In this document: positions 6,708 to 61,558 of the stretch, piece by piece
Layout: the number at the start of each line of letters is the position of its first letter
Position numbering within the stretch: position 1 is the stretch's first letter
Assembly (NCBI GenBank): GCA_002069785.1
Contig: MWCA01000025.1
Location: forward strand, 1-61,558
DNA length: 61,558 nucleotides
Reading direction: 5' to 3'
Source of the DNA: Lentisphaerae bacterium ADurb.Bin242
GTDB taxonomy: Bacteria; Verrucomicrobiota; Lentisphaeria; Victivallales; UBA1829
The notes under the pieces: generated by a model
What the model was told of the DNA's origin: nothing
Seen by the model: only the letters and a program-made list of their open reading frames with translations
Database searches by the model: none
Position numbers and translations under genes: made by a program

Positions 6708-6867
6708 TTGGAACCTGCCCTCCATTATTTTGCTGTATTTTGTTTGATTGGACATCCCGCTTTCCTTCCGGGTTCCCCCGCGGAGCCGTATGGGGAAGAA
6801 ATCTCTTTTTTCTGAAATAATTATAATCGGATTTCAAAAGGAAACCTTGAAAAAATCACCTATTTAT

Positions 6868-44230: not shown

Positions 44231-46600
44231 ATGATTGCAAGTTTTGACTTCAACAAGGGATGGAAATTCATCCGCGGTTTTTCCGAAGAAATGCTTGCCG
44301 GAAATTACGACGATTCATCCTGGCGCACGCTCGATCTCCCGCACGACTGGAGCATCGAGAATGATTTCGACATCGATTCCCCGACGTTCTGCCGGGGGGC
44401 ATGGCTTCCCGGAGGCATGGGCTGCTACCGCAAGCGTTTCACGCTGCCGGAAGATTTCCGAAACCATGACGCCGCTCTTTATTTCGGCGGAATCTACCGC
44501 AATTCCGAGATATGGGTCAACGGGCATTACGCGGGCGGACGGGAATGGGGGTTCATCTCGTTTGAAACCCGGATCGGAAAATGGCTTGATCCCGGCGGCA
44601 TCAATGTGGTGGCGGTAAAAGTCGATAACTCCGTTCAACCTTCCTGCCGCTGGTATTCCGGCAGCGGTATCTACCGGAATGTGGAACTGGTGTTCAGTGA
44701 CAGACGCCTGGAAATTCCACGCTGGGGGATGTATGTTCTCGCCTGCAACGAAAACATTTCGGAAAAACACGTGGAGTTCTACCTGAAATACGAACTGCAC
44801 AACAAATCCGGCCGGCGGCTGAAAGCCATGGTCTCCCACAGGATCAAGGATGCGGACGGCGCCGCCGTATATGAATATGAAGCCCCGCATACGCTCGGGA
44901 CCGGGATGATGGTTACGCTTGCCGATACGGTGCGGCTCGACCATCCGCGCCTGTGGTCGCCCGAAAGTCCGCATCTCTACCGCTTGCAGACAAACATATC
45001 CCTCGACGGCAGGGTGATTGACACTTTTGAATGCAATTTCGGGCTTCGCTCCGTGATTTTCGACGCAGACAAAGGATGTTTTCTCAACGGCAGGCATTGC
45101 AGGATCAATGGTTTTGCCCTTCATGCGGACGGCGGTGCGCTCGGAAGCGCGGTTTCCAAAAAGAGTTATGTCCGTCAGCTCCGGATTCTGAAGGAGTTCG
45201 GCTGCAATGCCGTCCGCACTGCGCACAATCCTCCCGGCGAGGACTTTCTCGAGGCATGCGACGAACTCGGACTGCTTGTTCTGGATGAGGCATTTGACGA
45301 ATGGCAGGAGCCGATCCGCATCGGGCCGTTCGAAGACGGCGAAGTGCAGACAACCTATGCCCGCTATTACTCGGAGATTTTTGACCGATGCTCGAAACAG
45401 GACCTGACCGATTTCGTAAAACGCGACCGGAACCATCCTTCCGTTTTCATGTGGTGCATAGGCAACGAGATTCCGCAGATGCACAAGCCCACCGGCGGCG
45501 CAATCGCCCGGCGGCTTGTGGAGACAGTTCACCGGCACGACGAGATGCGCCCCGTCACCAGCGCTGTCACCATGGATGATTTCCTTCATGAGAATATCGA
45601 CTGTCTCGACATTGGCGGCTACAATTATCCGAGGGGGCCGATGATGGACATGCTTCACGCCAAACACCCGGGCCAGCCGATGATCCTTACGGAAAACCAC
45701 TCCGTGCGCTCCATGCTTCCTCCCGGGATGTATCTCCCCTTCGGAGAACGCCCCGATTTCGGCTACCGCCATCCGGGCGCAGTCGATTTCATCATGCGGC
45801 ACGCGGATTTGAAGCTGGGGGTGGAACAGGATCTTTCCGCTGCGGCACGCCCTTATGTCATGGGGCATTTCGTCTGGACCGGATTTGATTATCTCGGCGA
45901 ACCGACCCCCTGCGACTGGCCGGCGCACAGCAGTTTCTACGGAGTATTCACTACCGCCGGTTTTCCGAAGGACGCCGCCTATTATTACAGATACATGTGG
46001 AGAAAAGAGATTCCGGGAGTCCGCCTCTGCACCAACTGGGATTACAGGCCCGGTGACAAAGTGGAGGTCAAAGTCCTTTCCAATTGTCCCGTCGTCGAAC
46101 TCTTCCTGAACGGCAGAAGCCTCGGCGCCAAAGCCGTTCATGCCATCGCCTCATGGCTGGTCTCCTTCGAACCGGGCGAACTCAGCGCCAAGGCGTATCG
46201 CGACAATTCGAACGAAGTCTCCGCAACGGATGCCGTTCATACTTCCGGAAAACCCGCGGTACTGCGCCTCACTCCGTATTTCGGGACGGCGATGAAGGCG
46301 GGAAGCCTTGACCTCGAATACATCGCATGCGAACTGTTTGACGAGGCCGGGCATCCTGTCCGTATGCCGATGATTCCGGTTGCTTTCCGCATTTCCGGAG
46401 CGGGACACATCACCGGAGTCGATAATGGATATCCCATGGAGGAAATGACTTATCAGCGCTCGACCGCCTGCCGTACATGTGACGGGCGCTGTTTGTGCAT
46501 CGTGAAGCCCGGCCAAGAAGCGGGCATCCTTCTCCTTGAGGCAGAAGCGGGCAACTGCCGGGCATCGCTCGCGCTCCGGACGGAGGAACAGCAGACATGA
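44231..46600 (+). CDS. GH2-family glycosidase (beta-galactosidase-like), cytoplasmic
   Basis: 789 residues; AAAGGA precedes the ATG and there is no signal peptide. Domains in order: sugar-binding jelly roll (about 1-170: WRTLDLPHDWSIENDF, GIYRNSEIWVNGHYAGGR), Ig-like (about 175-280), GH2 barrel (about 285-590: CRINGFALHADGG, NAVRTAHNPPGEDFLEACDE), then beta domains related to those after bacterial GH2 barrels. The acid/base is E413 (WCIGNEIPQ). The nucleophile is probably E488 (MILTENHS). The operon context suggests it trims oligosaccharides made outside by the DUF4838 proteins; galactose specificity is by family resemblance only. Its end overlaps the next gene by four bases (ATGA). Confidence 0.9.
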   Translation: MIASFDFNKGWKFIRGFSEEMLAGNYDDSSWRTLDLPHDWSIENDFDIDSPTFCRGAWLPGGMGCYRKRFTLPEDFRNHDAALYFGGIYRNSEIWVNGHYAGGREWGFISFETRIGKWLDPGGINVVAVKVDNSVQPSCRWYSGSGIYRNVELVFSDRRLEIPRWGMYVLACNENISEKHVEFYLKYELHNKSGRRLKAMVSHRIKDADGAAVYEYEAPHTLGTGMMVTLADTVRLDHPRLWSPESPHLYRLQTNISLDGRVIDTFECNFGLRSVIFDADKGCFLNGRHCRINGFALHADGGALGSAVSKKSYVRQLRILKEFGCNAVRTAHNPPGEDFLEACDELGLLVLDEAFDEWQEPIRIGPFEDGEVQTTYARYYSEIFDRCSKQDLTDFVKRDRNHPSVFMWCIGNEIPQMHKPTGGAIARRLVETVHRHDEMRPVTSAVTMDDFLHENIDCLDIGGYNYPRGPMMDMLHAKHPGQPMILTENHSVRSMLPPGMYLPFGERPDFGYRHPGAVDFIMRHADLKLGVEQDLSAAARPYVMGHFVWTGFDYLGEPTPCDWPAHSSFYGVFTTAGFPKDAAYYYRYMWRKEIPGVRLCTNWDYRPGDKVEVKVLSNCPVVELFLNGRSLGAKAVHAIASWLVSFEPGELSAKAYRDNSNEVSATDAVHTSGKPAVLRLTPYFGTAMKAGSLDLEYIACELFDEAGHPVRMPMIPVAFRISGAGHITGVDNGYPMEEMTYQRSTACRTCDGRCLCIVKPGQEAGILLLEAEAGNCRASLALRTEEQQT

Positions 46601-47445
46601 CGATGAATCGGAAGCATTTCCTGACCGCCGTATTTTTTCCGGGAATCCTTCTTTGCTGTATTTCCCTCTGCGCACAGGAAATATTGTTTTCGCCGGAGAA
46701 AGTCACGGATTGGCTTTGGAACTATACGCCGGACAAAGTCTCCGTTTCGGAGGAAAACGGGACGAAAGTGTTCCGGGTCTATGGGTACCGTCAACTGTTC
46801 TCGGTGCAAAAGTTTCCTGTTGAAACGGGCAAGGCATACCGGCTTTCCGGTGAATTCCGGGCGGGGCCGGGCACCATTCCCGCGAAATTCTACTTCGGGT
46901 TCTCTCAGTTTGCGGAAAAAGGCAGGCTCATCAATTCCCCCCAGGTAAACATTCTGCCGGGAACGGATGCGGTACTGCTTTCGGATGTGGCAAAGAGCGA
47001 TACGGTCGTCTTTCTGGATTCCGGCGCGAACTGGAAGAAAGGCGGATTCGTCGTGTTCGGCGCACGAAAAGACCTTTCCGATCTTCCTAATTTTCGTATT
47101 GCGAAGGGGACGGTGAGCTCCGTTGAAATAAAGGACGGAGTTGTGAAACTGACCTTGTCGCGCCCGGCAGGGTTGGAAGCGGGGAAAGGGACTGGGGTCC
47201 GCGAGCATTTCCCCGGCGGAAATTACCATTACGCCGGAGCGCTGAACGAAACGGCGCCCAGGGAATGGACCGGATTCGAAGGCATCATATCCGGTTTTGC
47301 ATCCAGCGGGCTGCCCCGGGAAAAATGGTGGCCTGGCGCTGAAAGCGTCTCGGTGCTGATCCTTGCGAATTACCGGGGACCGAAAGAGTCCGTTCTGGAA
47401 TTCCGAAACCTGAAATTTGAAATGATAAAAAAGGAAAATCACTGA
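46597..47445 (+). CDS. Secreted stand-alone beta-rich module, unrecognised family (copy 1)
   Basis: 282 residues with a signal peptide (HFLTAVFFPGILLCCISLCA). No known domain recognised. The mature part shares a pattern with the protein at 49855-50649 and with the N-terminus of the heparinase-like protein at 58579: AYRLSGEF near the start, DLSDLPNF in the middle, GTGVREH, a W...G...G segment, KWWPGA, and VLEFRNLKFE at the end. The alternating beta pattern suggests a carbohydrate-binding sandwich. Its start overlaps the GH2 stop (ATGA), and it lies one base before the next DUF4838 gene. A glycan-binding role is inferred from context. Confidence 0.75.
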   Translation: MTMNRKHFLTAVFFPGILLCCISLCAQEILFSPEKVTDWLWNYTPDKVSVSEENGTKVFRVYGYRQLFSVQKFPVETGKAYRLSGEFRAGPGTIPAKFYFGFSQFAEKGRLINSPQVNILPGTDAVLLSDVAKSDTVVFLDSGANWKKGGFVVFGARKDLSDLPNFRIAKGTVSSVEIKDGVVKLTLSRPAGLEAGKGTGVREHFPGGNYHYAGALNETAPREWTGFEGIISGFASSGLPREKWWPGAESVSVLILANYRGPKESVLEFRNLKFEMIKKENH

Positions 47446-47446
47446 C

Positions 47447-49849
47447 ATGAAACGAAAAAACATGAAACGGCTTCTGCTCGCTGCATTGCTTTGCGGTTCG
47501 GGAATCCTTCCAGTGCGGGCAGCGGATCATCCGCTCGTGAAAGACGGTCATGCAGAATCCGTAATCGTGCTGCGGGATGTGAGTGCGCCGGGCGTCTTTG
47601 CGGCATGTGAACTTGCCGACTATCTGGAAAAGATCACCGGCGGCAGGCCCGAAATCCGCCGGGACCCGGTTCCCGGCAAATACCCCATCCATCTGATCTT
47701 GAAATCCGCCGAGGCTCAAAAGATCATGCCCGCCGCCGTATACGCCGCGACAAAGCACATCCAGGACGACGGATTTCTGCTGGCTTCCGGGAAAGACGGC
47801 ATGTATCTCTATTCCCGCCTTCCGCGCGGATTGATCTATGCCGCTTACGAAATTCTGAAGCGCTACGGGGATGTCCGCTGGTTTTATCCGACGGAGGAAG
47901 GGGAATACTGCCCGAAGAAAAAGACCTTCACTGTTCCGGAGGAAACCGTTGTCTCGAATCCGTCCATTCCGAAACGCTTTTTCAATCTGGTCTGTTACAA
48001 CCGCGGCTTTGCGGATGAAGCCTTCAAATGGCAGCTTCGCAACAATATGATCGTCATCGGCAACCCGCGCTACCCGAACTTCCACACATACGGGATGTAT
48101 TTCTCGGAGGGCGGGCATTGTTTCAGCACCCTCCTCCCCGATGATCTGTTCGATGCCAATCCCGAATTGTTCTGCCTGTTCAACGGAAAGCGCTATCCGC
48201 AATCCGGGAAGATCGACGCGAACGGCAAACGCATCAAAGGCACTCCGCAGGCAAACCAGCCGTGCACGACAAATCCCGAAACCCTGCGTATCATGAAGTC
48301 CAACCTGCTTCACATGCTGACGAAAAACGGAATCGTGGACCAGCTCTCGATCATCAACAACGACTCCCAGGTATGGTGTGAATGCGCAAGATGCAGAAGC
48401 ATCGATACCCTCGAGGAAAAGCGGCTGTTCAAAATCGGCACCCGCTACTGGACGCTTGTCAATGAGCTCGTCAAAACCGCCATGGAGTATTTCCCCGGCA
48501 TCGATATTTCGGTTCTCGGCTACCAGAATTTCCAGGCGCCGCCGCCGAAAGACGCCGTCCTGCCCGACAAACGCGTCATGGTCCCGGTCGCCGTACACCA
48601 GCGTTGTTATGCGCACAGCATGGACGATGCGTCCTGCCCTGTGAACAAACGCTTCCGCGACTATCTGGCCGCTTGGAAAAAATGCGGCATCATGACCGGG
48701 ACATACGAATACACGAACATGCTTCCCGGCGGCAGAATACGCTACAATCCTCTGGAAAAAATCGTTGTCGGGGACATCCAATATTACCATCGGCTGAAAA
48801 ACCGCATTTACATTGATGAACTGCCCCCGTATGCCGCCGTCTACAACGCCAAACGCTGGGGACGAGGCGTCATGGAGGCGCAGCGTGCAAACTTTTTCGT
48901 CCACTATCTTCAGGCCTATTTCCTGTGGGACGCGACGGCCGATTTCGAAAAGGTTTACAATGACGCAGGAAGCAAATTCTACGGTCCCGCCTGGAATGAG
49001 GTCAAGACATTCAAGCAGAAGCTTTCCGACGCCTTTACCGGAAGCGGGATTCATTTCATGTACGGCACTTCCGGGCGCGCCCTCGGCAAATGCATTGAAA
49101 CGCCTGAAAAAGAAAAGGAGCTTCTGTCCATGCTGGACAAGGCGCTGGCGAAAACGGATTCCAATTCCGTATACCGCAAACGCGTCGAATACGAAAAAGA
49201 GTGTTTCCTCGACAGCTGGAGCTTCTGTGCCGCAGATTACCGCAAGATCAGGAAAAATAACCTGACAGTTACGAAAAATACGCCTGTGCTTGATGGAAAT
49301 TCCGACAAGGAGGTCTGGAAAAATGCGACTGTGGTTGAGGGTTTCAAAACGATGAGTTCAAATAGCCCCGCCGATCCCCGGACAGTTGTCAAGTTCCTCT
49401 ATGACGACAAGAATCTCTATCTCGCCGTTACCGCAATGGAGCCGTCTCCCGATAAAATGGTCTCCCGCTGCAGCAAACAGGATGAACTGGTCTGGCAGGA
49501 CAACAGCATCGAACTTTTCTTTGCGCCTCCCGCAGTTGACGGACGCTGTGTTCATATCGTATTCAATGCACTGGGAACCCTCTATGACACTGTCTCGCTC
49601 AGCCCTCCGGACAACGACCTTTCCTATTCCTCCGGGGCGGTCGTCAAAACCCGGGTCGGCGGGGATCGGTGGACCGCAGAGATCGCCATCCCGTTTTCCG
49701 CTCTGGGCCTTCAGCCGAAACCGGGCGAAAAACTGCCGATGAACGTGGCGCGCAACCGTCTTGTTTCGGACACGGTTCACGCCGCTCCATCCTCCTGGAA
49801 CTCTTATTTCCATGGAGCTGAAATCTTCAATACGATCGAATTCAGGTGA
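47447..49849 (+). CDS. Secreted DUF4838 protein with CBM9-like domain
   Basis: 800 residues with a signal peptide (RLLLAALLCGSGILPVRA). The N-terminal domain (CELADYLEKITGGRPEIRRD, LPRGLIYAAYEILKRYGDVR) and DUF4838 core (NNDSQVWCECARCRS; HQRCYAHSMDDASC; YEYTNMLPGG) match the protein at 41522 throughout. A CBM9-like sandwich ends it (about 610-800: LDGNSDKEVWKNATVVEGF, NSIELFFAPP, AEIAIPFSAL). It lacks the extra C-terminal CBM-like domain of its paralogue. It lies one base downstream of the unrecognised module gene and five bases upstream of the next copy. Putative glycan-active enzyme, reaction unproven. Confidence 0.85.
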   Translation: MKRKNMKRLLLAALLCGSGILPVRAADHPLVKDGHAESVIVLRDVSAPGVFAACELADYLEKITGGRPEIRRDPVPGKYPIHLILKSAEAQKIMPAAVYAATKHIQDDGFLLASGKDGMYLYSRLPRGLIYAAYEILKRYGDVRWFYPTEEGEYCPKKKTFTVPEETVVSNPSIPKRFFNLVCYNRGFADEAFKWQLRNNMIVIGNPRYPNFHTYGMYFSEGGHCFSTLLPDDLFDANPELFCLFNGKRYPQSGKIDANGKRIKGTPQANQPCTTNPETLRIMKSNLLHMLTKNGIVDQLSIINNDSQVWCECARCRSIDTLEEKRLFKIGTRYWTLVNELVKTAMEYFPGIDISVLGYQNFQAPPPKDAVLPDKRVMVPVAVHQRCYAHSMDDASCPVNKRFRDYLAAWKKCGIMTGTYEYTNMLPGGRIRYNPLEKIVVGDIQYYHRLKNRIYIDELPPYAAVYNAKRWGRGVMEAQRANFFVHYLQAYFLWDATADFEKVYNDAGSKFYGPAWNEVKTFKQKLSDAFTGSGIHFMYGTSGRALGKCIETPEKEKELLSMLDKALAKTDSNSVYRKRVEYEKECFLDSWSFCAADYRKIRKNNLTVTKNTPVLDGNSDKEVWKNATVVEGFKTMSSNSPADPRTVVKFLYDDKNLYLAVTAMEPSPDKMVSRCSKQDELVWQDNSIELFFAPPAVDGRCVHIVFNALGTLYDTVSLSPPDNDLSYSSGAVVKTRVGGDRWTAEIAIPFSALGLQPKPGEKLPMNVARNRLVSDTVHAAPSSWNSYFHGAEIFNTIEFR

Positions 49850-49854
49850 GCATC

Positions 49855-50649
49855 ATGAAAAACATGTTGTACATTCCGGCTCTCCTGGCGGCGGGAACGG
49901 TTCTTGCCGCCGGAGATGCCATAACATTTCCGTATCCCGGAGACTGGAACGACAATCCGCTCGTTTCCGAAGCAAAAGACGGTGCTCTTTTGTTTTCAGG
50001 GGATCACGGAATGATTGCATCCACCAGAATATTTCGCATCGATCCCTCCAGGACTTACCGGCTGAGCGGTTCTTTCCGCCAGGAAGGCGCGGCAAAGGTA
50101 AAGATGACTCTGGCGCTGCGCGTTTATGACAGGGACCGCATCGAGATCAAAGCGGACGCTGTTTCCCCCGTTCCCGGCACGGACACAAAACTTTCCGCCG
50201 ACTGCTGCGCCGCAGACAAGTTTGTGATCGTGGAAAACGGAAGCGCCATCCGTCGCGGCTCCCTTGCATTTCATACCGAACCCGATTTCAGCGACTTGCC
50301 GAACAGGAGACTTATTCCCGGAATACAGACCGGCACGAAACTGGACGACGGCAAATGGCGGATCGAGTTCCGGCAGCCGGTCGGAGTCAATCTCCCCGCC
50401 GGAACCGCCGTCCGCGCTCATTACGGCTACCTGTATCAGATGACCGGCGGACAGTTCAATATAACGGAGAATTGGACGGAGCATTCCGGTACAGTTTCGG
50501 GTATGGCAAAATCCGGCCGCGGCGGGTCCCAATGGCGTCCGGGCGCCGCTTATGCGCAGGTGATTCTTGTCAAAGAGGGTAAAAATGCAAAGGTGCTGTT
50601 TCAGAACATCAAATGGGAAGAGATTCCCGCACCGGGAACTGGAAAATGA
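49855..50649 (+). CDS. Secreted stand-alone beta-rich module, unrecognised family (copy 2)
   Basis: 264 residues from the ATG at 49855, five bases after the upstream stop, with a signal peptide (MKNMLYIPALLAAGTVLAAG). The mature protein repeats the pattern of the protein at 46597: TYRLSGSF, DFSDLPN, GTAVRAHYG, ENWTEHSGTVSGMAKSG, QWRPGA, VLFQNIKWEE. Sequence identity looks low but spacing is kept. It ends by overlapping the GH42 start (ATGA). No known family recognised; a glycan-binding or structural role is inferred. Confidence 0.75.
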   Translation: MKNMLYIPALLAAGTVLAAGDAITFPYPGDWNDNPLVSEAKDGALLFSGDHGMIASTRIFRIDPSRTYRLSGSFRQEGAAKVKMTLALRVYDRDRIEIKADAVSPVPGTDTKLSADCCAADKFVIVENGSAIRRGSLAFHTEPDFSDLPNRRLIPGIQTGTKLDDGKWRIEFRQPVGVNLPAGTAVRAHYGYLYQMTGGQFNITENWTEHSGTVSGMAKSGRGGSQWRPGAAYAQVILVKEGKNAKVLFQNIKWEEIPAPGTGK

Positions 50650-52775
50650 TGGGTAAAAACAGAAAACAGTTTTATTTCGGCGGCAGTTATGTCCCGCTCG
50701 GGCTTGACAAGCATGTTCCCATGAGCGAGTGGGAAGGCGGAATGTGTGAAATGCGGCGTCTTGGGATCAATGCTTTCCGGGCCTTCGTTTCATGGAACCG
50801 GATTGAGCGGATCGAAGGGAAATGCGATTTCACGGAATTGGATTATGCCATGGAACTCGCGGAAAAGTATGTGCTTCATGTTGTCCTGAATGTCGGCGGC
50901 ATGTTCAATAATATTCAGGGGTTCCGTCCTCCCCCCTGGCTTTCCTATGCCTGTCATTGCAGGCACCGCATCGACGATCCGCTTAAGGCGCACATCCATG
51001 AAGGGGCGGACCTCATGCTCTGCGCGGATGATCCGGTCCTTCAGGAGAAAGCGTATGCTTTCATTGAAAAAGCGGTTCTGCGCTATCGCGGATCGCCGGC
51101 TCTGGAGGGATGGAGCATTTGGAACGAACCGCACGGCGATCCGTGTTATTGCGAGTGCACCCTCAAGGCATTTCGTGCCTGGCTCCAGGCAAAGTACGGC
51201 ACACTGGATGCGCTGAATGAACGCTGGGGAACCGTATTCCCGATTGACTTCCCGAGTTGGGACGATGTCTGTCCCTCGGTCGATATGTCGCCCTATGCCC
51301 ATGCCGACCCGTGCATGAAGCTGGACTTCCTGAATTTTCTCGAAGACAGCTTCATTGAAAAATTCAACCGGATTTCCGCTCTGGTCCGCAGGTTTGACCC
51401 CGATCATACGACAACGTTCAACCTCCAGGGGATTCACGGACATGACATGGATCGCTTCCAGGTCACAAATCCCGGCATATCGGCATACATCGAAGAACTC
51501 GCCGTGAACCCCCGCCGGGTCAATCTCTGGCTGAACATGTATCTTCGAAGCGCCCGCACCGGAAGAGATGGACAGGACAAGATCCGTATTCTTGAAACGG
51601 ACAGCGGGCCGCGGCCGACCGGGAAGCGTCCCGGATGCCAGAAACTGGCGTCCGTCCGCGATTGGACATTTGTTGCCCACGGGGCGGACATGATCCTCTC
51701 ATGGATTCACCGGACCCGCATCACCGGCGGACATGCCCTTCAGGCTTCGATGACGCGCTGGGACGGAAGCACGCCGCCGCGCCTGGAGACTGCCGGCGCA
51801 CGCGGACAGACGATTCTCCGGCACCAGGAGCGGCTGCTTGGCGCTTCGCCGTTCTCCGGACGCTGCGGCGTGCTCCATGATATGAAGATGTACCGATATG
51901 CCACTGTCGAGCGCTGGCACGGCTCTTTCAATTTCACGACAAACAGTCACGATGGCGCATTCATGCTCATGCAGGATGCCGGATATGCTCCTGAATTCAT
52001 GAATGACAGTATGGTGCTTGATGGGCGCTTCCGCCGTTTTCCCGCGCTCATTCTTCCCTTCATGCCTTATATGACGCGGTCCCTTGCATCCGCGCTGCGC
52101 GATTATGTGTGGAATGGAGGCATTCTGATTGCCGAGGCGCTTTTCGGAGTGAAGGACGAAAATATGGAGCAGTTCTGGAGGAAAACACCCGGCTGCGGCC
52201 TGGATGAAGTCTTCGGATTCCGCTGTGCGGACATGATGTATTTTGACCCCGTGAAGGATAAGATACTGCTCGGCGCCGGAGAGATCATTCCCGCAGAATA
52301 TTTTCGTGAATGTATTGAACCCTCGGAAGGTGCCGCTGTCCTGGGGCGTTTTCCGGATGGATCTCCCGCAGTTGTTTCGCACTGCTGGGGAAAAGGGCGC
52401 ACTCTGTTCCTCGCCGCTCTTGCAACAAGCAGATACGATTATGAAAACACCGCGTTGAGAACATTGATTGCCTCTTTTCTCGAAAATTCCGGCGTTCTCC
52501 CTCTGTTCAAAATCCGGTCCGAACAAAATGCGGGCGCCCTCGGAGTCTATTTGGCGACGAAGGACGGGAAAACTGCGGACATTGCATATTTGATCAATTA
52601 TGCGGAGGAACCGATTTCCTTTGCACTTTTCCCGGACGCCGGAATCCTGCCGGAAAAGGCATCCTTCACGGATATCCTGACCGGAAAACAATATGACGAT
52701 TTTGCGGAGATTACACTGGAAGACCGGCAATGCGCCGTTCTTTTTGCGGACAGGAAAGATACTGCGCCTGTTTGA
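50646..52775 (+). CDS. GH42-family beta-galactosidase-like enzyme, cytoplasmic
   Basis: 709 residues from the ATG at 50646, which overlaps the upstream stop by four bases; no signal peptide. The barrel (about 15-390) opens with MRRLGINAFRAFVSWNRIE and has the acid/base E161 in SIWNEPHGDPC and the probable nucleophile E317 in RILETDSG. Cys residues in CYCEC resemble the metal cluster of GH42 enzymes. Residues about 395-620 form the trimerisation domain (YVWNGGILIAEALFGVKDE; GKGRTLFLAALATSRYDY), followed by a short beta domain. It is the last gene of the operon. Specificity for beta-galactosides follows the family; it is not proven here. Confidence 0.85.
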   Translation: MMGKNRKQFYFGGSYVPLGLDKHVPMSEWEGGMCEMRRLGINAFRAFVSWNRIERIEGKCDFTELDYAMELAEKYVLHVVLNVGGMFNNIQGFRPPPWLSYACHCRHRIDDPLKAHIHEGADLMLCADDPVLQEKAYAFIEKAVLRYRGSPALEGWSIWNEPHGDPCYCECTLKAFRAWLQAKYGTLDALNERWGTVFPIDFPSWDDVCPSVDMSPYAHADPCMKLDFLNFLEDSFIEKFNRISALVRRFDPDHTTTFNLQGIHGHDMDRFQVTNPGISAYIEELAVNPRRVNLWLNMYLRSARTGRDGQDKIRILETDSGPRPTGKRPGCQKLASVRDWTFVAHGADMILSWIHRTRITGGHALQASMTRWDGSTPPRLETAGARGQTILRHQERLLGASPFSGRCGVLHDMKMYRYATVERWHGSFNFTTNSHDGAFMLMQDAGYAPEFMNDSMVLDGRFRRFPALILPFMPYMTRSLASALRDYVWNGGILIAEALFGVKDENMEQFWRKTPGCGLDEVFGFRCADMMYFDPVKDKILLGAGEIIPAEYFRECIEPSEGAAVLGRFPDGSPAVVSHCWGKGRTLFLAALATSRYDYENTALRTLIASFLENSGVLPLFKIRSEQNAGALGVYLATKDGKTADIAYLINYAEEPISFALFPDAGILPEKASFTDILTGKQYDDFAEITLEDRQCAVLFADRKDTAPV

Positions 52776-53216
52776 TTGAAAAAAGGGCTTCCGTGATTTC
52801 GCTTTTGAAGAATACACATAGTAATCCCCAATCTAGGGAATATCAAATGCACGAAAAAGTCCGGACGCTGTCTTGCGTTTCAGTTCTCCAGGCAACGCTT
52901 CCGTCCCGCGCTTCATCATCTCTTTCGCCAGTTCTTTCCGCCGGAATATCTGAAGATATTTCTCATCTGGTCCTCTGGGCAGCTTCCGTCACGCTCTGTG
53001 TTCAGCGAATATTGGATTTTTCAAGTCCGCCGTGTAACCGAACTTCCTCCAGACTTTACTAAATTGTTTTTTTATTTGTTCAACAGAACATATTTTTGAA
53101 TATATATTTTAATTCCATATATATCACAATATATTTAAAAACAACAAATAGGCATACATATTTTACTTGAATAAAGGATTAAGAGGGATTATATTCCCGG
53201 AAAGGAGGCGCGGCCT
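52776..53216. other. Intergenic region with a possible decayed gene and operator half-sites
   Basis: The left part (52848-53060) gives a protein-like translation on the minus strand (KVWRKFGYTADLKNPIFAEH, then after a stop ELAKEMMKRGTEALPGELKR) that I cannot assign; it looks like a remnant. The right part is very AT-rich and contains TGTTC-AACA-GAACA (53077-53090), ATTTGT (53074-53079) and ACAAAT (53144-53149), resembling the half-sites near 55600. A strong AGGAGG precedes the gene at 53217. Confidence 0.5.
53077..53090. promoter_or_regulatory. TGTTC-AACA-GAACA dyad upstream of the enolase-superfamily gene
   Basis: Perfect 5-bp arms with a 4-base spacer, overlapping an ATTTGT half-site. It lies about 130 bases before the start at 53217, in an AT-rich promoter region. 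Candidate repressor site. Confidence 0.35.
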
Positions 53217-54326
53217 ATGAAAATTGAGAAGGTATATGCGTATCATTATTCCATCCCGCTGAACCATCCTTTCCGAATCAGTGCAGGAGAAATCCGCGAG
53301 AAGGAAGGACTTGTCTTTGAATTACGTACCCGCCATCTTACCGGATGGGGAGAAGCGTCTGTCGATGGGATTCCATTTTATGCGCACGAAACCTGCGGAT
53401 CGGTCATGGACCTCGCCCGGAGAGTGCTTGTGCCTCTTCTGGAAAGCCGCGATTGGAATGATCCATACGAATTCAATGAAGCCTGTCATGCATATCGCGG
53501 TGGTAATTTTGCAAAATGTGCTTTCGAGACGGCATTGTGGGACATTTATGGACAGCAGGAAAATGCCCCCGTCTGGAAACTCCTCGGTGGGAATCGGGAA
53601 ACGATTGAAAGCGGAGGCGCGGTCGGAATCAAAAGAAATCCGAATGAGACGGTTCAAAGCATCGCCGCACTCCTGGCGCATGGATATCGCCGGATCAAGC
53701 TCAAAATCTCGCCAGGGCATGACACCGAATATCTCGAAGCCGTGAGGTCGGCTTTCCCGGATATCTCCCTGATGGTCGATGCCAACAGTGCATACGGAGC
53801 AGATGATTTTGACAAGATTGCTTCCTGGGACCGGTTCAATCTTTTGATGATCGAGCAACCGCTGGATGAAAACGACATCTATTTTCATTCCCTTTTGCGC
53901 AGGAAAATAAAAAACCCGATTTGTCTGGATGAAAGCCTGCATACCATTCACGACACCGAATGTGCAATAAACCTGAAGGCGGCTGATATTGTCAACATCA
54001 AAGTTTGCCGCGTCGGAGGTCTCTGCAACACGAAGGCGATTCATGACCTCTGCATGAAAAACAACATTTCAAACTGGATCGGCAGCCGTATTACCGCTTC
54101 CATTGGAGAAGCCCCCCGTCTTGCCGCGTGCACATTGCCCAATTGTTCCCTTGCATCCGATTTCGGAATTCCACTCGAGCGGGGGCATATCGCCGATGAT
54201 TTCGCGGAAATCGACACAAAAACCATTGACGGATGTCGGATGACGGCGCCTTCCCAATCCGGGCTCGGTCTCAAAATCGACCGGAAAAAACTTTCCTCTT
54301 TCCTCTTGGACGCATGCAGAATGTAA
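53217..54326 (+). CDS. Enolase-superfamily enzyme (OSBS / N-acylamino acid racemase-like)
   Basis: 369 residues; AGGAGG lies 9 bases before the ATG. The N-terminal capping domain (about 1-130) leads into the barrel. Catalytic signatures of the muconate-cycloisomerase subgroup are present: KxK lysine in RIKLKISPG, metal ligands in VDANSAY, MIEQPL and CLDES, and the second lysine in VNIKVCRVGG. The sequence is closest in style to MenC/N-succinylamino acid racemases. No menaquinone genes are nearby, and the next gene is a sugar-type regulator, so a racemase or acid-sugar/dipeptide epimerase role is as likely as menaquinone synthesis. Activity cannot be fixed from sequence. Confidence 0.85.
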   Translation: MKIEKVYAYHYSIPLNHPFRISAGEIREKEGLVFELRTRHLTGWGEASVDGIPFYAHETCGSVMDLARRVLVPLLESRDWNDPYEFNEACHAYRGGNFAKCAFETALWDIYGQQENAPVWKLLGGNRETIESGGAVGIKRNPNETVQSIAALLAHGYRRIKLKISPGHDTEYLEAVRSAFPDISLMVDANSAYGADDFDKIASWDRFNLLMIEQPLDENDIYFHSLLRRKIKNPICLDESLHTIHDTECAINLKAADIVNIKVCRVGGLCNTKAIHDLCMKNNISNWIGSRITASIGEAPRLAACTLPNCSLASDFGIPLERGHIADDFAEIDTKTIDGCRMTAPSQSGLGLKIDRKKLSSFLLDACRM

Positions 54327-54362
54327 GAGAATTTGCAATTATGGATTTCCTTACCCGCATTC

Positions 54363-54391
54363 TTGAAAAGGAAAGCAAAAGCATGTATAGT
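54363..54391 (+). promoter_or_regulatory. Promoter of the GntR/LacI-type regulator
   Basis: TTGAAA (54363-54368) and TATAGT (54386-54391) are separated by 17 bases, 32 bases before the ATG at 54424. Confidence 0.55.
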
Positions 54392-54423
54392 ATTTTCTTT
54401 ATTGACAGCGGGAGATTTCCAGA

Positions 54424-55479
54424 ATGAAAATAGAGCTTAAAGCCCGAAACAAAGAGATTCCGGTTTATGATGAACTTCGGAAAATGTTCGTCGACGCCAT
54501 CCGGAAGGGCAAATTGAAAACGGGGGATCGAATTACCCCGGAAGAAGAACTTGCCAAAATGTTCAAAACTTCCCGGACAACCGTCCGGAAAGCAATGGCA
54601 TGTCTCCAGGAAGAGAATCTTATTCTGCGCTTCCCCCGGAAAGGGACATTCATCAACAGCAATTTTTCTGCGGATGAAAGCAAGCCGCTGCCGATCATCG
54701 GAGTTGATTATCTAGGCGGGATCATCCGCAGCGGACCCGGTTACTACGGGGCGATGATCGAAGGAATTGTTTCCTGTGCCAGACGCAACCGGATGATCGT
54801 TACTTTTCTGGATAAAGACAAGAAGGATGACCCTGAAAAATTTGCCGGAATCATTTTCCTTCAGGAACCGAATAAATCCCTGCCGATCGTTCAGGCCGCT
54901 CTTCAGGGTGTCTTGCCCGGCGTTGGAATCAACCGGAAGATCGGCGGGCATGTGGGCTGTCTGTGCGTCGACTATAAAAGAGAAAGTTATCTCGGTGTCA
55001 AAAAACTGATCGAGCGGGGATACCGGGACATCGGTTACTATGGAAACGGATTCTATGGAGATGAGTTCAATCAGACGCGCTATGCCGGTTATTATCAGGC
55101 CATGACGGAAGCCGGTCTCCCTCTGAAAAAGAAAAACATCCATTTCTTTTCTTCGGAAACGAACAGATATCTTCAGGCAAAATTATATTTTCAACATGCC
55201 CGGATTTCCGCGTTGTTCGTTTCGCTGGCGCCGATCCTGTTTTCAGTGCTTTATGCGATGAACATACTCCGGATCTCCCCGGCGGAAGACATCAAGGTTC
55301 TTTGTTTTGACAATCTCGAGGATATGGAGCTCAACGGACCGGATATTGCCTATATCAAGATGCCGCTGCAGAAGATGGGAGTCCGCGCGACCGAATATAT
55401 CAGTCAGAAATTGACTTTAAAAAATAAGCTTTCTCCTGTCAATGAGGTTTATCCGGCTGAATTCTGTTTTCCGGATTGA
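54424..55479 (+). CDS. GntR/LacI hybrid transcriptional regulator (AraR-like layout)
   Basis: 351 residues. The N-terminal winged helix is of the GntR type (about 12-75: IPVYDELRKMFVDAIRKGKL, EEELAKMFKTSRTTVRKAMA, LILRFPRKGTF). Residues about 90-350 form a LacI/periplasmic-binding-protein sugar sensor (GYYGAMIEGIVSCARRNRM, IERGYRDIGYYGNGFYGDEF, INRKIGGHVGCLCVDY). This layout is that of the arabinose repressor AraR and relatives, whose operators contain ACAAAT half-sites. Such half-sites are repeated upstream of the next gene and occur upstream of the preceding one, so local control is likely. The inducer is unknown. Confidence 0.85.
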   Translation: MKIELKARNKEIPVYDELRKMFVDAIRKGKLKTGDRITPEEELAKMFKTSRTTVRKAMACLQEENLILRFPRKGTFINSNFSADESKPLPIIGVDYLGGIIRSGPGYYGAMIEGIVSCARRNRMIVTFLDKDKKDDPEKFAGIIFLQEPNKSLPIVQAALQGVLPGVGINRKIGGHVGCLCVDYKRESYLGVKKLIERGYRDIGYYGNGFYGDEFNQTRYAGYYQAMTEAGLPLKKKNIHFFSSETNRYLQAKLYFQHARISALFVSLAPILFSVLYAMNILRISPAEDIKVLCFDNLEDMELNGPDIAYIKMPLQKMGVRATEYISQKLTLKNKLSPVNEVYPAEFCFPD

Positions 55480-55555
55480 ACCGTTTTCCCGAGATGGAAA
55501 GAATTGTTTTCATGCCTGTGATATGAAAAAATATGGAATTTTTATCACTTCTCCC

Positions 55556-55583
55556 TTGACAAATTTATTTTTTCATATATAAT
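55556..55583 (+). promoter_or_regulatory. Consensus promoter upstream of the acyltransferase-like gene
   Basis: TTGACA (55556-55561) and TATAAT (55578-55583), both perfect matches to the sigma-70 consensus, separated by 16 bases. It is immediately followed by the ACAAAT repeats, which would overlap the transcription start, the expected place for a repressor. Confidence 0.75.
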
Positions 55584-55617
55584 ACAAATAGCAATACAAA
55601 TATAACAACAAATTTGT
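55581..55617. promoter_or_regulatory. ACAAAT repeat array, candidate operator of the GntR/LacI regulator
   Basis: AATACAAATA occurs twice as a direct repeat (55581-55590 and 55593-55602, 12 bases apart), followed by the 10-bp palindrome ACAAATTTGT (55608-55617). AraR-type repressors recognise inverted sites with the half-site TACAAAT, identical to the half-site here. The array begins within the -10 box of a consensus promoter. Confidence 0.6.
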
Positions 55618-55646
55618 AATCAAATAAAATAGTCTGTGGGAAAACG

Positions 55647-56900
55647 ATGAATGCCTGTGATGTTCTCGCTGAAATGAAAATTCAAGAAAAAGCGTATGCA
55701 ATCATTATTCCGGGCTGGGGACAATCCGTTTCCAATATGCCGGACAAGATTGATTTTCTGCTCCCGGAAAATATTAAATGCGCCTGTGACTGGAGTTGTC
55801 TGGAGAAAGAGGTCACAGAGGAAATTCTGGCGGTCGGCAAAGTGGTTGCGGAAACCCCCGCGCTCCGCGCTTTCGCCTGGCATATTTACTACAAGCTGAT
55901 GTTTCTGCCCTTCTCTTACGGAAATTATTCGCATTCATTCGGCGGCTGGCCGCTTCCGGAACATCATCTGGGTCATGCCGCCGGACTGTTTTACGTCCTG
56001 GTGGCGCTGGGCCTGGTTCCGCACACGGTAAAAAAACAGCAGGAAATGAACATTCCGGACAAAATTATCCGCGATACGCTGAATCTCACGGAAAGCATCG
56101 CGTTCTACAAACGCAGCAACGGCATTCCGGGAATCGATCCTTCGGTGATACACTGGCACCGGCTTTATGTCGCCGGACGGCTTTTCACACTCGGGCGGTT
56201 TCAATACAAGCTGGCCGAACTTTTTTCCTTCGGGGCAATGCTCCGCAGCAAGTCCGACGGACGCCGCCTTTTATTCGCTGAACCGGGAATGCGGTTCAAT
56301 TCGAAAGGATTCATCGTCCAGTCCGGATGCGAGTCCGATTCGGACAGGATTTCCTCCTTTGAACTGACAGACACCCATGTGTCCGGCTTTCCAGTCTCGC
56401 CCGAAGGATTTGCCTTCCTGGAAAAACATACTTGTTCCCGGAAAGAATGGGATGTGATTCTGCGGCGCGGCGACATCCTTCTCGATCTCCATATTCCCTC
56501 CGGAGGCAAGATGACTCCGGACGCCTGTCACGAATCACTGGAACTTGCCTTCCGGTTTTTCAGAGAACACCGTCCCGGACAATTTGTTCCTGCCGTCATC
56601 AGCCGTTCCTGGATTTTCAATACGCAGTTCGAAGAAATGCTGCCGGACTCCAATCTTGCGAAACTGATGTGCGAATGCTATTTGTTCCCCTGTCCGTCGG
56701 ACGGAAAAGACGGTTTTTTTTTCCTTTTCGGAAAAGATTATCCCGATCCGAAGGATGCGCCTCACGACACCACTCTCCGCCGGGCAATGCTTTCCGTTCT
56801 CGAGCGCGGAGACCGTTTGCGTCTGGGCGGTATGCTTTTCCTGGCGGAAGATTTGCAACGATATGGAAAGTCTGTATATAGAAGTCAATTCAAACTCTAA
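55647..56900 (+). CDS. Acyltransferase-domain protein (NAT_N/GNAT_C-like)
   Basis: 417 residues, no signal peptide. The layout recalls proteins with a NAT_N domain followed by GNAT_C: a helical region with [15 protein letters not shown], then [19 protein letters not shown], a beta stretch with [20 protein letters not shown], and [19 protein letters not shown]. Members of this family, known mainly from gut Firmicutes, are predicted acyltransferases of unknown substrate. The gene follows a consensus promoter with putative operator repeats. It precedes a pseudopilin gene by 17 bases, so it heads an operon that may run to the heparinase-like gene. Modification of a sugar or sugar amine is inferred only. 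Confidence 0.6.
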
Positions 56901-56917
56901 AAACGAGGAGAAGAAAG

Positions 56918-57733
56918 ATGTCAGGAAGATTTCAGAAAACTCCGGGAAGCGTGAAGAAATTCACATTAATCGAACTGCTGGTCGTTATTTCGATCATTGC
57001 CATTCTTGCGGCATTGCTGCTGCCGTCACTGAATCAGGCGCGTGCCAAAGCCCGCGAGATCGCTTGCCTGAGCAATGGTAAACAACTTGGGATTCAACTG
57101 GTGGTCTATGTCGATTCCCAGAAAGAATTTCTGCCGCCGCGTTATGATTCTCCGGGCGCTTCCATCAATGACCCGGTAGACATGTGGTACGGTCCGGGCA
57201 AGCTCAATGTGCCGACAAAACTTCTGCTGGGCTGCGGGGAAGGCAAACCGAATCCCGCCTCCACTGTCATGCGCGGTTATATGCACTACGGCATGGCCGA
57301 CTTTTCAGCCCTTGGTGATCCCAGGCGATCTCCACGTCTTTCTTTTGTCATCACTCCGCAGAACATTGTTGCTTTTTCCGACAGCAGTCATCCGAACGAT
57401 TATAATGTCTGGATATATTCCGCGGATGCCGGTTCCCGGGCTCCTTCGAGCATGCGCCCGTGGATTGTCAGCAATCCGGGATCGGGCGACTTCACCCGGT
57501 TTCGTCACGGCAACAAAAATGAAATGATCAGCTTTACAACGCCTTCCTCCAAGCTGACGACACCGAAAAAGAGTCAAAGCCGCGCCTCCTTTGCATTTAT
57601 CGACGGACATGCGCAGTTGATGTCTCCATATGAAGCATACCAGCCGGCCGCTGACTCGGACTGGACCGGATGGAACACCGGCAAGCCCAAGCTGTATTGG
57701 AAACACTGGATCAACAAAATGCCGGCCGAATAA
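56918..57733 (+). CDS. Pseudopilin-like protein, FTLIELL N-terminus
   Basis: 271 residues; GAGGAG lies 7 bases before the [23 protein letters not shown] is the pilin-type helix, with Lys before Phe. The Cys/Arg-rich middle has [16 protein letters not shown]. The C-terminal motif is altered: RHGNKNEM and [12 protein letters not shown] are separated by an insert of over 20 residues rich in Ser/Thr/Lys, so the H-X9-DG spacing is broken although the FIDGHA strand is intact. It follows the acyltransferase-like gene by 17 bases. Confidence 0.85.
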
Positions 57734-57930
57734 ACAGTCCATAAAAACGCCCTGAAAAATTCACTTCCGCCTGGAGTTCGGAAGCAATAGTCCGGCGAAG
57801 GTCGGAAAGGTAAACGAGTTTGAATGCCGGGTTGGATGGAACCGATCCGGTGCATGGTCAAGTTTTGAACAATACATCCACGCGAAAGTCGTGGCGAACA
57901 AACAGAGACAGGAAAACTGTAGGTGGTAAA

Positions 57931-58416
57931 ATGATCCGAATAAGAAAATTCAAGGCCGGAGACGCGGAACCGGTGGCGGCAATCATGTTCAAGGCATTTA
58001 AAAGTTTTTTAGGAACCCGGATTAAGCAGGAAGATTTTACCGCGGAATATTACAGGAAAACTTCAAACCTGAAAGCCTCCCATTCGGAAACAGTATCTTT
58101 TGTTGCTCATGACGGAGAAAAAGTTGTAGGCTATTTAAAGGTGGCGGCAGGAAATAACGGCCTGGGATCATTGGAGAGCATCGGCATTGCCCCGGAGTAT
58201 TTTTCCAAAGGGATCGGCTCCATGCTCTTTGCTGAGGCGGACAAATTCTGGCAGATGAAAAAAATGCGTAAGATTTCCACCTGTGTTTCCGCACATAACA
58301 GGAAAGCCCTCATTTACTACATTAAAAATGGTTTTATTCCGGAAGGATACCGGCGAGATCATTTCTTCGAAGGAGTCGATGAGATCATTTTAGGACGCTT
58401 CATGAAAAAAGCTTAA
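57931..58416 (+). CDS. GNAT-family N-acetyltransferase
   Basis: 161 residues from the ATG at 57931, chosen because AGGTGG precedes it and the fold begins directly (MIRIRKFKAGDAEPVAAIMF). The acetyl-CoA loop is GIAPEYFSKGIGSMLFAEAD, with motif B ISTCVSAHNRKALIYYIKNG. The substrate is unknown. It lies 197 bases after the pseudopilin and 162 bases before the heparinase-like gene, on the same strand; the hairpin CTTCCG/CGGAAG between it and the pseudopilin may separate transcription units. Confidence 0.85.
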   Translation: MIRIRKFKAGDAEPVAAIMFKAFKSFLGTRIKQEDFTAEYYRKTSNLKASHSETVSFVAHDGEKVVGYLKVAAGNNGLGSLESIGIAPEYFSKGIGSMLFAEADKFWQMKKMRKISTCVSAHNRKALIYYIKNGFIPEGYRRDHFFEGVDEIILGRFMKKA

Positions 58417-58578
58417 AGCGCACAGTTTGCTTAAAATAAAGATATGTTTTCAATGCACGGCTTTTTCAAGGTAAAATGCGTTCAGTCTGACAAAACGTGC
58501 GTTTGCTTTGTCAATGGACCAACCTGAAAAACAGGAAAACTTTAGCAGAAACAAATCAATCCGGGAGATAATAAAATC

Positions 58579-61558
58579 ATGAAACGATCTGTTGTTCACA
58601 CCGCCATCTGTCTGATTCCGGCAATGCTTTTTGCATCCGAGGCGACTGAATTCCTGCCGTCGCGGGACGGCGGATGGAATCCTGAAATTGCAGCCGCGGA
58701 GGACGGATTCCTCATTACGAAAGAAACCTCGCGTCTGACATCGAACACTTCGTTCGAAGTCGATCCAAAAGCGACCTATAAGCTGTCCGGCAAGTTCAAG
58801 CGCTCGCCTTCGGCGCCGCCGAAACCGTTGTTGTTTTTCGGGCTGGAAGCACTGGACAAACAGGGACGCGGCATCAGCTCTCCGGCGGTTTTTATCTATC
58901 CGGAAACCGAAACGGAACTGACTTCCGATCTGCCGGCAAAAGGAACGGGCGTAACCGTTCGGGATGCTTCGAAATGGAACACGAAATCAAACGCTTGCGT
59001 GATCGCCTTCAACGTGAAGGACAATCTGGCCGATCTGCCGAACTTCTCATACAGCACGAACATCAAAAAGATTGAACGGAAGGACAACGCCTGGCTCATT
59101 ACATTGGCTCAGCCGGCCTGGGCGGGATTCAAGGCGGGAACCAAAGTCCGGCAGCATTCCCACGGACTCGGGAGAATCTATTGCGCCGCCAATTATCGGC
59201 AGATTGTCTGGGACGACTGGCACGAAATCAACGGAACCGTCTGCGGAATCGCGGAACACGGGGCGCCCGCGAATCAATGGTGGAAGGGAACGGTCCGGGC
59301 AAAAATCACGATTTCGGCCGAGCCTGGAATCCTTCTCAAAGACATCAAGCTCGAAAAGATCGGAGGAAAAGTCAATCTCGTGGAGAAGGCGGCAATCCGG
59401 CCGCAAGTCAAAGCCGATCCGCTGAAACCTCTGTTCGAGAAATACAATCAGGAACTCGCTCACCGACTGGATATGTCCCATCCGCGTCTGCTGTTCACGG
59501 ACGCAATGTTCGAAAAAATGAGGAAAAGAGCGGCCTCGGAACCGCTGATTGGAAATGCGTTGCAGGTGCTTTACCGGAAAATCGATCTTTATCCGGACGA
59601 GGTGAATGAAGCATCCTTCAGCCGGAAACAGGAAGGCGAAGCGGTTTTCTATTCGACGGATAAGTTCGGCCCGACAGCCATGCGGGCGGCGTTTGCCTAT
59701 AAAATGACCGGTGAAAAGAAATATCTCGGCAAAGCGCTGAATATCCTGAAATATGCTTCGGAATGGTACAACAAGCGTTACGAGGAAGAGAAACCGGTCA
59801 GCTGGACTTCCTTCTCCCGGATTTCAGCCCTCTGCGCCTATGATTGGCTTTACAATGAAATGACGCCGTCCGACCGGGCCGTCATCGGAAAAAACCTGTT
59901 GAAACATATCGTTCAGGCACAAAACACGGACTGGATCGTACAATCGGGACTTCAAAACAAAGGCGAAGGCACCAGCCGCTGGAATTCCAGTTTTTACGGG
60001 ACTCCGTTGATGAAGTTCTACACGGGACTGGCTTTTCATAAAGCGGGCATCGACGACAAAGCCGCGGAAAAACTGCTGGAGGAAGGACTCGCGGATCATA
60101 TAAGAATGCTCGATTACCGTTCGGAAATGGCCGGTTCGGATGGCGGCGGCAACAACAGCACGCCGGGGTATGCCTTCGGAGACGCGCCGATGTGCGAATG
60201 GCTTTTTTACTATGCGTGGAAGACGCTGACGGGGCGGAACATTGCGACTGATTTTCCCGCCAACGGACTGCTGCCGCACTGGCTGTTTTACGCTTCCTTC
60301 ACCGGGATCGACGGAAAACTTTATGAGCACGGAACAGGAGGTGCGTGGCACATCGACAACAAACTCAAGATGAATCTGCGTTATCTTGCCCAATACAGGA
60401 ATTTTTTTCCGGATTCTCCTGCCGTCGGAATCATTGATTTTCTGATCTCGACCCAGGATGACTTCAAAGACGACAAGTATATTTATGCCTCCGGCACCTG
60501 GCGGCACGACGGTTATTTCCCGTGGCTGCTCTTCCAATACAATTATACGAAACAATCCGAATACAAATTCGACAAGAAATTCTTCGATCATTTTCCAAAA
60601 GCCTATTTTTTCCGCAATCTCGGGCAAACCTATCTGTTCAGCGGAAGGGAGCCGGATTCCACATACGCCCTGTTCACCTGCGGTTCAAAAAGTTCGGTAC
60701 ACAAGCAGGCAGACGAAAATAATTTCATCATTTACAAGGGAGGCTTCCTCGCTCTGGATTCGGGCACGCGGAGCGCTTCAGGCCACAAGGACTGGCTCGA
60801 TGACATGTGGCATGACAATAATTACTACGCTGTGAGCATCGCGCACAATGTGGTGACGATCCGTATGGAAGGTGAAAAATTTTCCGGATGGCCCGCACCG
60901 AAGTATGCCGTCGCCAATCACGGCGGAATGTACAAGACCACCGGCGGCATTGTAAAAGCGTTTGAAACGAACAACTTTTATACCTATGTTTCAGGCGATT
61001 CGACAGCGTGCTACCGTCCCGAAAAATGTAAGAAAATGATCCGTCAGTTTGTCTTTGTCCAGCCCGATTTCTTTGTGATCTGCGACACGGTGAAGTCCGT
61101 GAAGCCGGAACAGCTCAAGACCTGGCTGCTCCATTCGCAGAACGAGCCGGAGGAGTCGGGAGATATCGTGAGTTTCGGTGAAAATAAAGGACGCCTGTTC
61201 TGCCGCACATTTCTGCCGGAGGATTTCAAGCGGGAAAAAATCGGAGGTCCGGGCAGGGAATTCTGGGTGGACGGAAAAAACTATCCGCTTGGGAAAACGC
61301 GTCTGGAAGAATATGCCGCCCGCAAAATAACGAATCCGCTGTGGGGCAACTGGCGAATCGAATTGACCCGGAGAAAACCATCCGAATCCGTTCGTTTCCT
61401 GAATCTGATCCAGGTCGGAATGGCGGACAAACTGAAAAAAATGGCAACGTCAAGTTATGTCAAAAACGGTACGCGTGAAGGAGTGAAATTCATTCATGAC
61501 GACACGGAATATACAATTCTGTTCGATGCGGACGGAACCGGCGGATATTTCAAGGCGG
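58579..61558 (+). CDS. Secreted heparinase II/III-like protein with N-terminal unrecognised module, partial
   Basis: At least 993 residues; it runs off the window without a stop. A signal peptide (MKRSVVHTAICLIPAMLFAS) starts it. Residues about 22-260 repeat the module seen at 46597 and 49855 (TYKLSGKF, DLPNFSYS, GTKVRQHSHG, NQWWKG, LLKDIKLEKIG). Residues about 290-640 form a helical toroid (RMSHPRLLFT-like entry, SWTSFSRISALCAYDWLYN), and from about 660 a beta domain with GGFLALDSGTRSASGHKDW and SIAHNVVTI, as in heparinase II/III-type lyases. Such enzymes cleave uronic-acid polysaccharides by beta-elimination. GGGAG lies upstream of the ATG. Substrate cannot be read. Confidence 0.85.
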   Translation, partial: MKRSVVHTAICLIPAMLFASEATEFLPSRDGGWNPEIAAAEDGFLITKETSRLTSNTSFEVDPKATYKLSGKFKRSPSAPPKPLLFFGLEALDKQGRGISSPAVFIYPETETELTSDLPAKGTGVTVRDASKWNTKSNACVIAFNVKDNLADLPNFSYSTNIKKIERKDNAWLITLAQPAWAGFKAGTKVRQHSHGLGRIYCAANYRQIVWDDWHEINGTVCGIAEHGAPANQWWKGTVRAKITISAEPGILLKDIKLEKIGGKVNLVEKAAIRPQVKADPLKPLFEKYNQELAHRLDMSHPRLLFTDAMFEKMRKRAASEPLIGNALQVLYRKIDLYPDEVNEASFSRKQEGEAVFYSTDKFGPTAMRAAFAYKMTGEKKYLGKALNILKYASEWYNKRYEEEKPVSWTSFSRISALCAYDWLYNEMTPSDRAVIGKNLLKHIVQAQNTDWIVQSGLQNKGEGTSRWNSSFYGTPLMKFYTGLAFHKAGIDDKAAEKLLEEGLADHIRMLDYRSEMAGSDGGGNNSTPGYAFGDAPMCEWLFYYAWKTLTGRNIATDFPANGLLPHWLFYASFTGIDGKLYEHGTGGAWHIDNKLKMNLRYLAQYRNFFPDSPAVGIIDFLISTQDDFKDDKYIYASGTWRHDGYFPWLLFQYNYTKQSEYKFDKKFFDHFPKAYFFRNLGQTYLFSGREPDSTYALFTCGSKSSVHKQADENNFIIYKGGFLALDSGTRSASGHKDWLDDMWHDNNYYAVSIAHNVVTIRMEGEKFSGWPAPKYAVANHGGMYKTTGGIVKAFETNNFYTYVSGDSTACYRPEKCKKMIRQFVFVQPDFFVICDTVKSVKPEQLKTWLLHSQNEPEESGDIVSFGENKGRLFCRTFLPEDFKREKIGGPGREFWVDGKNYPLGKTRLEEYAARKITNPLWGNWRIELTRRKPSESVRFLNLIQVGMADKLKKMATSSYVKNGTREGVKFIHDDTEYTILFDADGTGGYFKA

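Follow-up and report, generated by a model that had tools for sequence, protein, structure and literature searches.

The 61,558-nt stretch of DNA analysed here (the window), which is the entire contig C25 (MWCA01000025.1) of Lentisphaerae bacterium ADurb.Bin242, encodes three copies of one module, two as stand-alone proteins (modules 1 and 2) and one at the N-terminal end of a heparinase II/III-like protein (module 3). We propose that the module is a beta-sandwich of the type found in carbohydrate-binding module (CBM) families 4, 16 and 22 that carries a small barrel as an insert, and that it probably binds glycan chains, keeping secreted glycan-degrading enzymes or the tip of a phage tail on polysaccharide. 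In bacteria, the module would hold secreted enzymes on polysaccharide or, in trans, hold the substrate of these enzymes; the stand-alone copies would be exported and would work in trans next to hydrolases whose genes are co-transcribed with theirs. In phages, it would hold the tail on wall polysaccharide. The ligand would lie on the sandwich face used in CBM4/16/22, and the insert may shape or extend the binding site.

An old module family shared with phage tail proteins

Judged by sequence, the three window segments are homologous: their pairwise identities are 28.6, 30.0 and 29.7% (BLASTP, E 7e-30, 4e-29 and 1e-30), and the Smith-Waterman scores of the three pairs are 250-255, against 55 for the best shuffle (500 shuffles per pair). 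A preliminary description of this DNA had reported the three frames, two stand-alone and one fused, as a shared family of low identity with motifs in a common order. The frames were found at the places it gave, the BLASTP values (E 4e-29 or lower) and the shuffles bear out the family, and the named motifs are colinear in an alignment of the three segments. Two of the motif spellings need a small correction: the third protein reads NLADLPN and not D-[LF]-x-DLPN, and the motif given as W-x-G is better written as W-x2-G (WWPG, WRPG, WWKG). The claim that all three proteins are exported agrees with the signal-peptide-like stretch that appears to begin each of them, and signal-like starts occur in 55 of 59 copies of the module. 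The family tree (59 bacterial and 40 phage-type modules) places the window copies in three subclades, each with copies from elsewhere as neighbours: they are old paralogues and not the outcome of recent duplication. Taken as a whole, the view that the module forms an old, diverged and putatively exported family is supported.

The module occurs at 22 places in this genome (of the 23 matches found, two belong as separate pieces to the same short frame, on contig C64). Eighteen of these copies lie in frames of at most 377 aa without a partner domain, one of them ending at a contig end (C159) and one being weak (C64, E 1e-4); the remaining four lie in long frames of 1004, 1416, 1205 and 832 aa. 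The module is present in 20 of the 41 genomes of a sample of relatives, its own genome counted, and in at least 68 of 387 genomes of a phylum sample, where the scan scored at most six candidates per genome and the counts are therefore lower bounds; the phylum scan matches outside the class number seven, all weak (best 2.6e-12). Three loci belong to named relatives, from two “uncultured Lentisphaeria bacterium” isolates and one “Lentisphaerae bacterium”, and protein-database searches with bacterial alignments, each scoring the first 7999 candidates, returned at least 17 and at least 14 proteins. A scan of genome contigs with patterns of one protein returned four relatives, a number that is no measure of spread.

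Family libraries hold no model of the module. In Pfam and NCBIfam no family was matched by the two stand-alone window proteins, and the lyase part alone was matched in the third; PHROGs gave no match below E 0.1 to any of the three. Across 60 family members, Pfam and PHROGs gave scattered matches, with any one family reaching at most 2 of 60. The module does not qualify as CBM_4_9 (PF02018), which was matched by 2 of the 60 members with a best E of 3.4e-4 (among matches listed at E <= 0.1). Pfam and NCBIfam, on which the comparison with CBMs by sequence rests, cover part of the CAZy CBM families. A sequence search of the PDB with a single protein gave no match, and a GH10-attached domain, the best match of the 60-row profile (E 0.0098 over 44 positions), was too weak to use and was set aside as a relative. 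In a literature search outside the subscription journals, no title or opening of an abstract described the bacterial family.

Profile comparisons show homology, across both sandwich and insert, between this module and one found in phage tail proteins of the BM15/Deep-Blue type. Module 1 matched the tail protein gp87 of Bacillus phage BM15 (tblastn, E 2e-7). The BM15 module as query returned 40 phage records (Enterococcus 31, Staphylococcus 7, Bacillus 2), mostly annotated as tail fibre or phosphodiesterase, 12 viral-contig loci and 112 proteins of a large protein database. Few of these 112 carry a name, and most of the names point to tail or structural proteins in phages or prophages; one is a hypothetical protein from an Ignavibacteriaceae metagenome-assembled genome. 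A single bacterial copy used as query of the viral contigs found no viral relative. The bacterial profile, which contains no phage row, matched all 113 phage-type proteins (the 112 and the query) at E < 1e-3. For 110 of these E was below 1e-10; 113 shuffled sequences gave no match. When 60 bacterial rows were compared with 40 phage-type rows (hhalign), 223 columns were colinear, including the insert, with a probability of 99.9. The tree, from which one of the 60 bacterial rows (short) and one of the 41 phage representatives (incomplete) were omitted, separates the bacterial and phage-type sets into two clean sides with support of 100/100; it is unrooted and two-sided, and so gives no direction of transfer. 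In a viral structure library, a minor structural protein of Bacillus phage Hobo was matched with a template modelling (TM) score of 0.71 of the query and an E of 1e-15.

In the 1463-aa Deep-Blue protein Gp186, the bacterial profile covers residues 79-328, and the accessible portion of PMC11406892 reports a fold like a xyloglucan-binding module that is split into residues 65-151 and 261-328; the gap in the Gp186 fold thus fits the insert. By its sequence, CBM module 1 of Gp186 as given there is the same module as the bacterial family. Unlike the bacterial copies, it is part of a phage tail protein, is not secreted and lacks DLPN where the motif would align. That portion of the paper names neither a family nor a bacterial relative for it, and reports that the first CBM of Gp186 has no aligning counterpart in the sister phage Vp4.

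A predicted CBM sandwich with an inserted barrel

Residues 25-282 of module 1 (258 residues) were modelled with AlphaFold2 (AF2) at a predicted local distance difference test score (pLDDT) of 96.0. The predicted fold superposes on solved members of the CBM4/16/22-type beta-sandwich, and we predict that the module is such a sandwich with a small independent barrel inserted; the barrel of module 1 still folds when predicted by itself (Table 1). The sandwich of CBM16, CBM4 and CBM22 modules (2zew, 4bj0, 4xuo) superposes at 10-18% identity to the module 1 model, but their chains are 144-167 residues long, compared with 258 in the model, and are without the whole inserted barrel. The likeness of the insert to the K1-lyase Rider barrel (PF24149) and to other tailspike or GH110 barrels (7w1d, 4ru4, 9beu) is near the level of a common shape, and Foldseek gave no match below E 0.001. 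The Rider, tailspike and GH110 barrels are not known to be set within a CBM sandwich. Among other entries of the viral structure library, short proteins of giant viruses (A0A1V0SGD7 and A0A1V0SIQ6, from Hokovirus and Klosneuvirus) appear similar in predicted fold; the Hokovirus protein, of 281 aa, is about as long as a stand-alone module (TM 0.65/0.60).

The preliminary description had assigned the module to no known family and had thought a new glycan-binding or adhesion module possible. It is true that no Pfam, NCBIfam or PHROG model describes it, and that no described family in these libraries is significantly matched by all three segments; however, roughly half of the module has a predicted fold that is already well known, that of the CBM4/16/22 sandwich, and an earlier paper had used a predicted structure to describe a phage relative as a split CBM fold (PMC11406892, Table 1). 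Glycan binding is the best reading of the module and that guess is likely to be right, although the fold of about half of the module was not new. As a category the module is not new. It is a variant, as yet without a name, of the CBM sandwich, with a barrel inside, and its phage version was seen earlier in that one structure-prediction paper. Within the searches made, the novelty lies in the bacterial family and in three of its features: it is expanded in Lentisphaeria-like genomes, has moved between enzymes and is homologous to phage tails.

Enzyme partners and gene neighbourhood

Ten of 25 fused or longer proteins match a glycan-active or CBM family in Pfam at E <= 0.01, namely heparinase II/III (2), DUF6259 (3), GHL6 (1), DUF4838 (1), GH2/GH42-like (2) and CBM_4_9 (1); DUF6259 and DUF4838 we take to be glycosidase-like. 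Seven of the ten matches are over the Pfam cut-off, and the GH2/GH42-like and CBM_4_9 ones (L110, L118, L106) are under it. An N-terminal module is seen in the heparinase fusions and in one of the DUF6259 fusions; in the other two of these, as in the fusions with DUF4838 and GHL6, the module is C-terminal. One protein carries it twice. L100, one of the fused proteins without a family match, is 63% identical to the lyase part of the window protein. P0010 and P0012 looked by eye like CBM9 fusions, a reading that was dropped, as Pfam at E 0.01 finds nothing in either. Two families of long module-bearing proteins, one of ~1400 aa (L025:9112-13359, L102, L103 and L108; 37-75% identity within) and one of ~1500 aa (L111, L112 and L117; 51-58%), have no Pfam match at E 0.01, the long frame of L103 lying outside the scan, and are likely to be uncharacterised enzymes.

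The module 3 protein is heparinase II/III-like, with 36.5 bits for PF07940 against a cut-off of 24, and is not a HepB equivalog, for which NCBIfam requires 600 bits and it scores 108.6. Among solved proteins, heparinase II (E 5e-19) and a PL35 chondroitinase (E 4e-6) come closest. Two relatives have kept the fusion (three genomes in all); their lyase parts are 63-67% identical to that of the window protein and their modules 49-50%, which indicates that the module changes faster than the lyase.

Modules 1 and 2 lie in one dense gene run of the order DUF4838 - GH2 - module - DUF4838/CBM9 - module - GH42, with gaps around the modules of -4, 1, 5 and -37 bp (Table 1); the closest solved relatives of the GH42-family protein are beta-galactosidases. 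An earlier placement of all three modules in glycan clusters is apt for these two genes, but not for the genes preceding module 3, which are acyltransferase-like, pilin-like and GNAT-like with none glycan-active, although the module 3 protein has a lyase-like domain of its own.

Table 1. Modules, inserted barrels and neighbouring genes in the window
Feature	Position	Strand	Remarks
Stand-alone module 1	46597..47445	+	282 aa; signal-like N-terminus
Stand-alone module 2	49855..50649	+	264 aa; signal-like N-terminus
Module 3, N-terminal part of heparinase II/III-like protein	58579..59385	+	signal-like N-terminus included
Module + heparinase II/III-like protein	58579..61557	+	frame open at contig end; PF07940 at residues 689-852
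Predicted inserted barrel of module 1	46924..47223	+	model residues 86-185; unaligned middle of CBM match; pLDDT 95.2 alone
Predicted inserted barrel of module 2	50140..50427	+	by alignment
Predicted inserted barrel of module 3	58867..59172	+	by alignment
DUF4838 protein	41522..44209	+	Pfam
GH2-family protein	44231..46600	+	4-bp overlap with module 1
DUF4838 protein with CBM9_1 domain	47447..49849	+	between modules 1 and 2
GH42-family protein	50613..52775	+	37-bp overlap with module 2

Across the genome, 9 of the 22 copies have a DUF4838 or GH123 gene no more than 3 kb away, compared with 17% of the genome (P 0.008, uncorrected and the lowest value in six tests), and the cluster in the window accounts for two of the nine; within 1.5 kb the count is 6 of 22 (P 0.031, uncorrected). 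This test entered 139 DUF4838 matches and 20 of 31 GH123 matches, second pieces of one frame and matches under the cut-off being omitted. In a Pfam control of neighbours, families matched at least twice by the 62 neighbours of 19 copies include DUF4838 (5), GH123_N (4), GH42, GH20 and CBM9, and the 76 neighbours in 19 random regions matched eight families at least twice, none of them a glycosidase or CBM, in both cases among the matches listed (25 of 52 and 25 of 78 families). GFO/IDH/MocA, matched in the random regions, has GH109 members. Seven of the 62 copy neighbours are window genes, one of 20 random regions (L135) was omitted since it holds a module copy, and the gene calling missed 3 of the 22 copies and two genes before module 3; the whole-genome test is the fairer of the two. 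The enrichment gives modest support to a glycan role.

Other features of the neighbourhood were also observed. The gene at 55647-56900, between a GntR-type regulator gene and the lyase, encodes a protein of 417 aa whose domains are NAT_N and GNAT_C (PF18082, PF18164). Pilin-like proteins with an FTLIELL-type N-terminus are found at 56918-57733, 5982-6755 and 35757-36503, within or next to glycan clusters, and elsewhere in the genome DUF1559 occurs in 3 and N_methyl in 2 of the 62 neighbours of module copies. DUF4838 (PF16126), with window sites at 10143-10841, 41522-44209 and 47447-49849, has 139 matches in this one 6-Mb genome and is over the cut-off in 0 of 14 control genomes, an extraordinary expansion; the literature search returned almost no publications naming it.

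Glycan binding weighed against other roles

PMC11406892 reports that polysaccharides are required for phage adsorption and that Gp119, another CBM-bearing tail protein, binds cells. Several observations weigh against a glycan-binding role. According to the same paper, Gp186 fusions were insoluble, so that Gp186 could not be assayed for binding. The sandwich is common, and at nearly the same Z score it is shared with Stig cyclases (11.5), Cry1A C-terminal domains (11.5), EphA4 (11.1) and the ubiquitin ligase Fbs1 (11.0). Conservation peaks in the insert and not on the sandwich: the near-invariant DLPN and VRxH are both located in the barrel, where N141 and R178 are each kept in 59 of 60 rows, D138 in 58 and H180 in 52 (numbered by the 258-residue model). 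DLPN is not at the aligned place in the phage copies of BM15 and Deep-Blue, and may therefore be structural or particular to the bacterial side. The other 15 of the 25 fused proteins matched no family in Pfam. Taken separately, DUF4838 is modestly enriched near the copies (7 of 22 within 3 kb, P 0.038; 5 of 22 within 1.5 kb, P 0.060), as is GH123 (2 of 22, P 0.09; 1 of 22, P 0.27), all values uncorrected.

The many roles of similar sandwiches, the conservation peak in the insert and the joining of module and enzyme in three genomes would also suit a non-binding structural spacer or docking domain, which positions catalytic or tail domains and whose stand-alone copies dock onto neighbouring enzymes. 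We consider this unlikely, as 18 of the 22 copies are in short frames that carry no partner domain, the partners are unrelated with the module at either end, as suits a portable binding module, and the module diverges faster than the lyase to which it is fused. Less probable still is that the module ties secreted proteins to the envelope of the producer itself, or serves as an adhesin, with the enzymes' substrate left unbound. The phage relatives act at the bacterial surface (PMC11406892), so wall glycan could be the ancestral ligand, and the prevalence of signal-like starts also speaks for such a role; however, a single constant self-ligand would not require the strong divergence of copies within one genome, seen in the three subclades of the window copies, and two copies are interleaved with hydrolase genes. 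That the module is an enzyme, with D138, N141, R178 and H180 as an active or metal site, is very improbable: the near-invariance of these residues and the catalytic use of the same sandwich in Stig cyclases speak for it, but DLPN is missing from the aligned position in the homologues from phages BM15 and Deep-Blue, and the module matches no enzyme family in Pfam or NCBIfam.

Glycan binding by a CBM-type sandwich with an inserted barrel is therefore the reading that we favour. A wider proposal is more tentative, and we hold it to be possible rather than probable: the modules may form a new two-part glycan-gripping superfamily, in which a tailspike-type barrel within a CBM sandwich supplies part of the site. 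Passed between phages, for walls, and glycan-eating bacteria, for food, it would have multiplied to 22 places in one Lentisphaeria-like genome and acquired a range of specificities there. If the module does bind glycans, one unnamed module would connect phage adsorption and polysaccharide breakdown, two separate ways of gripping polysaccharide. It would give a role to many secreted Lentisphaeria-like proteins without a Pfam family and to one region of numerous phage tail proteins, and lone modules on glycan arrays could reveal the polysaccharide targeted by each neighbouring enzyme.
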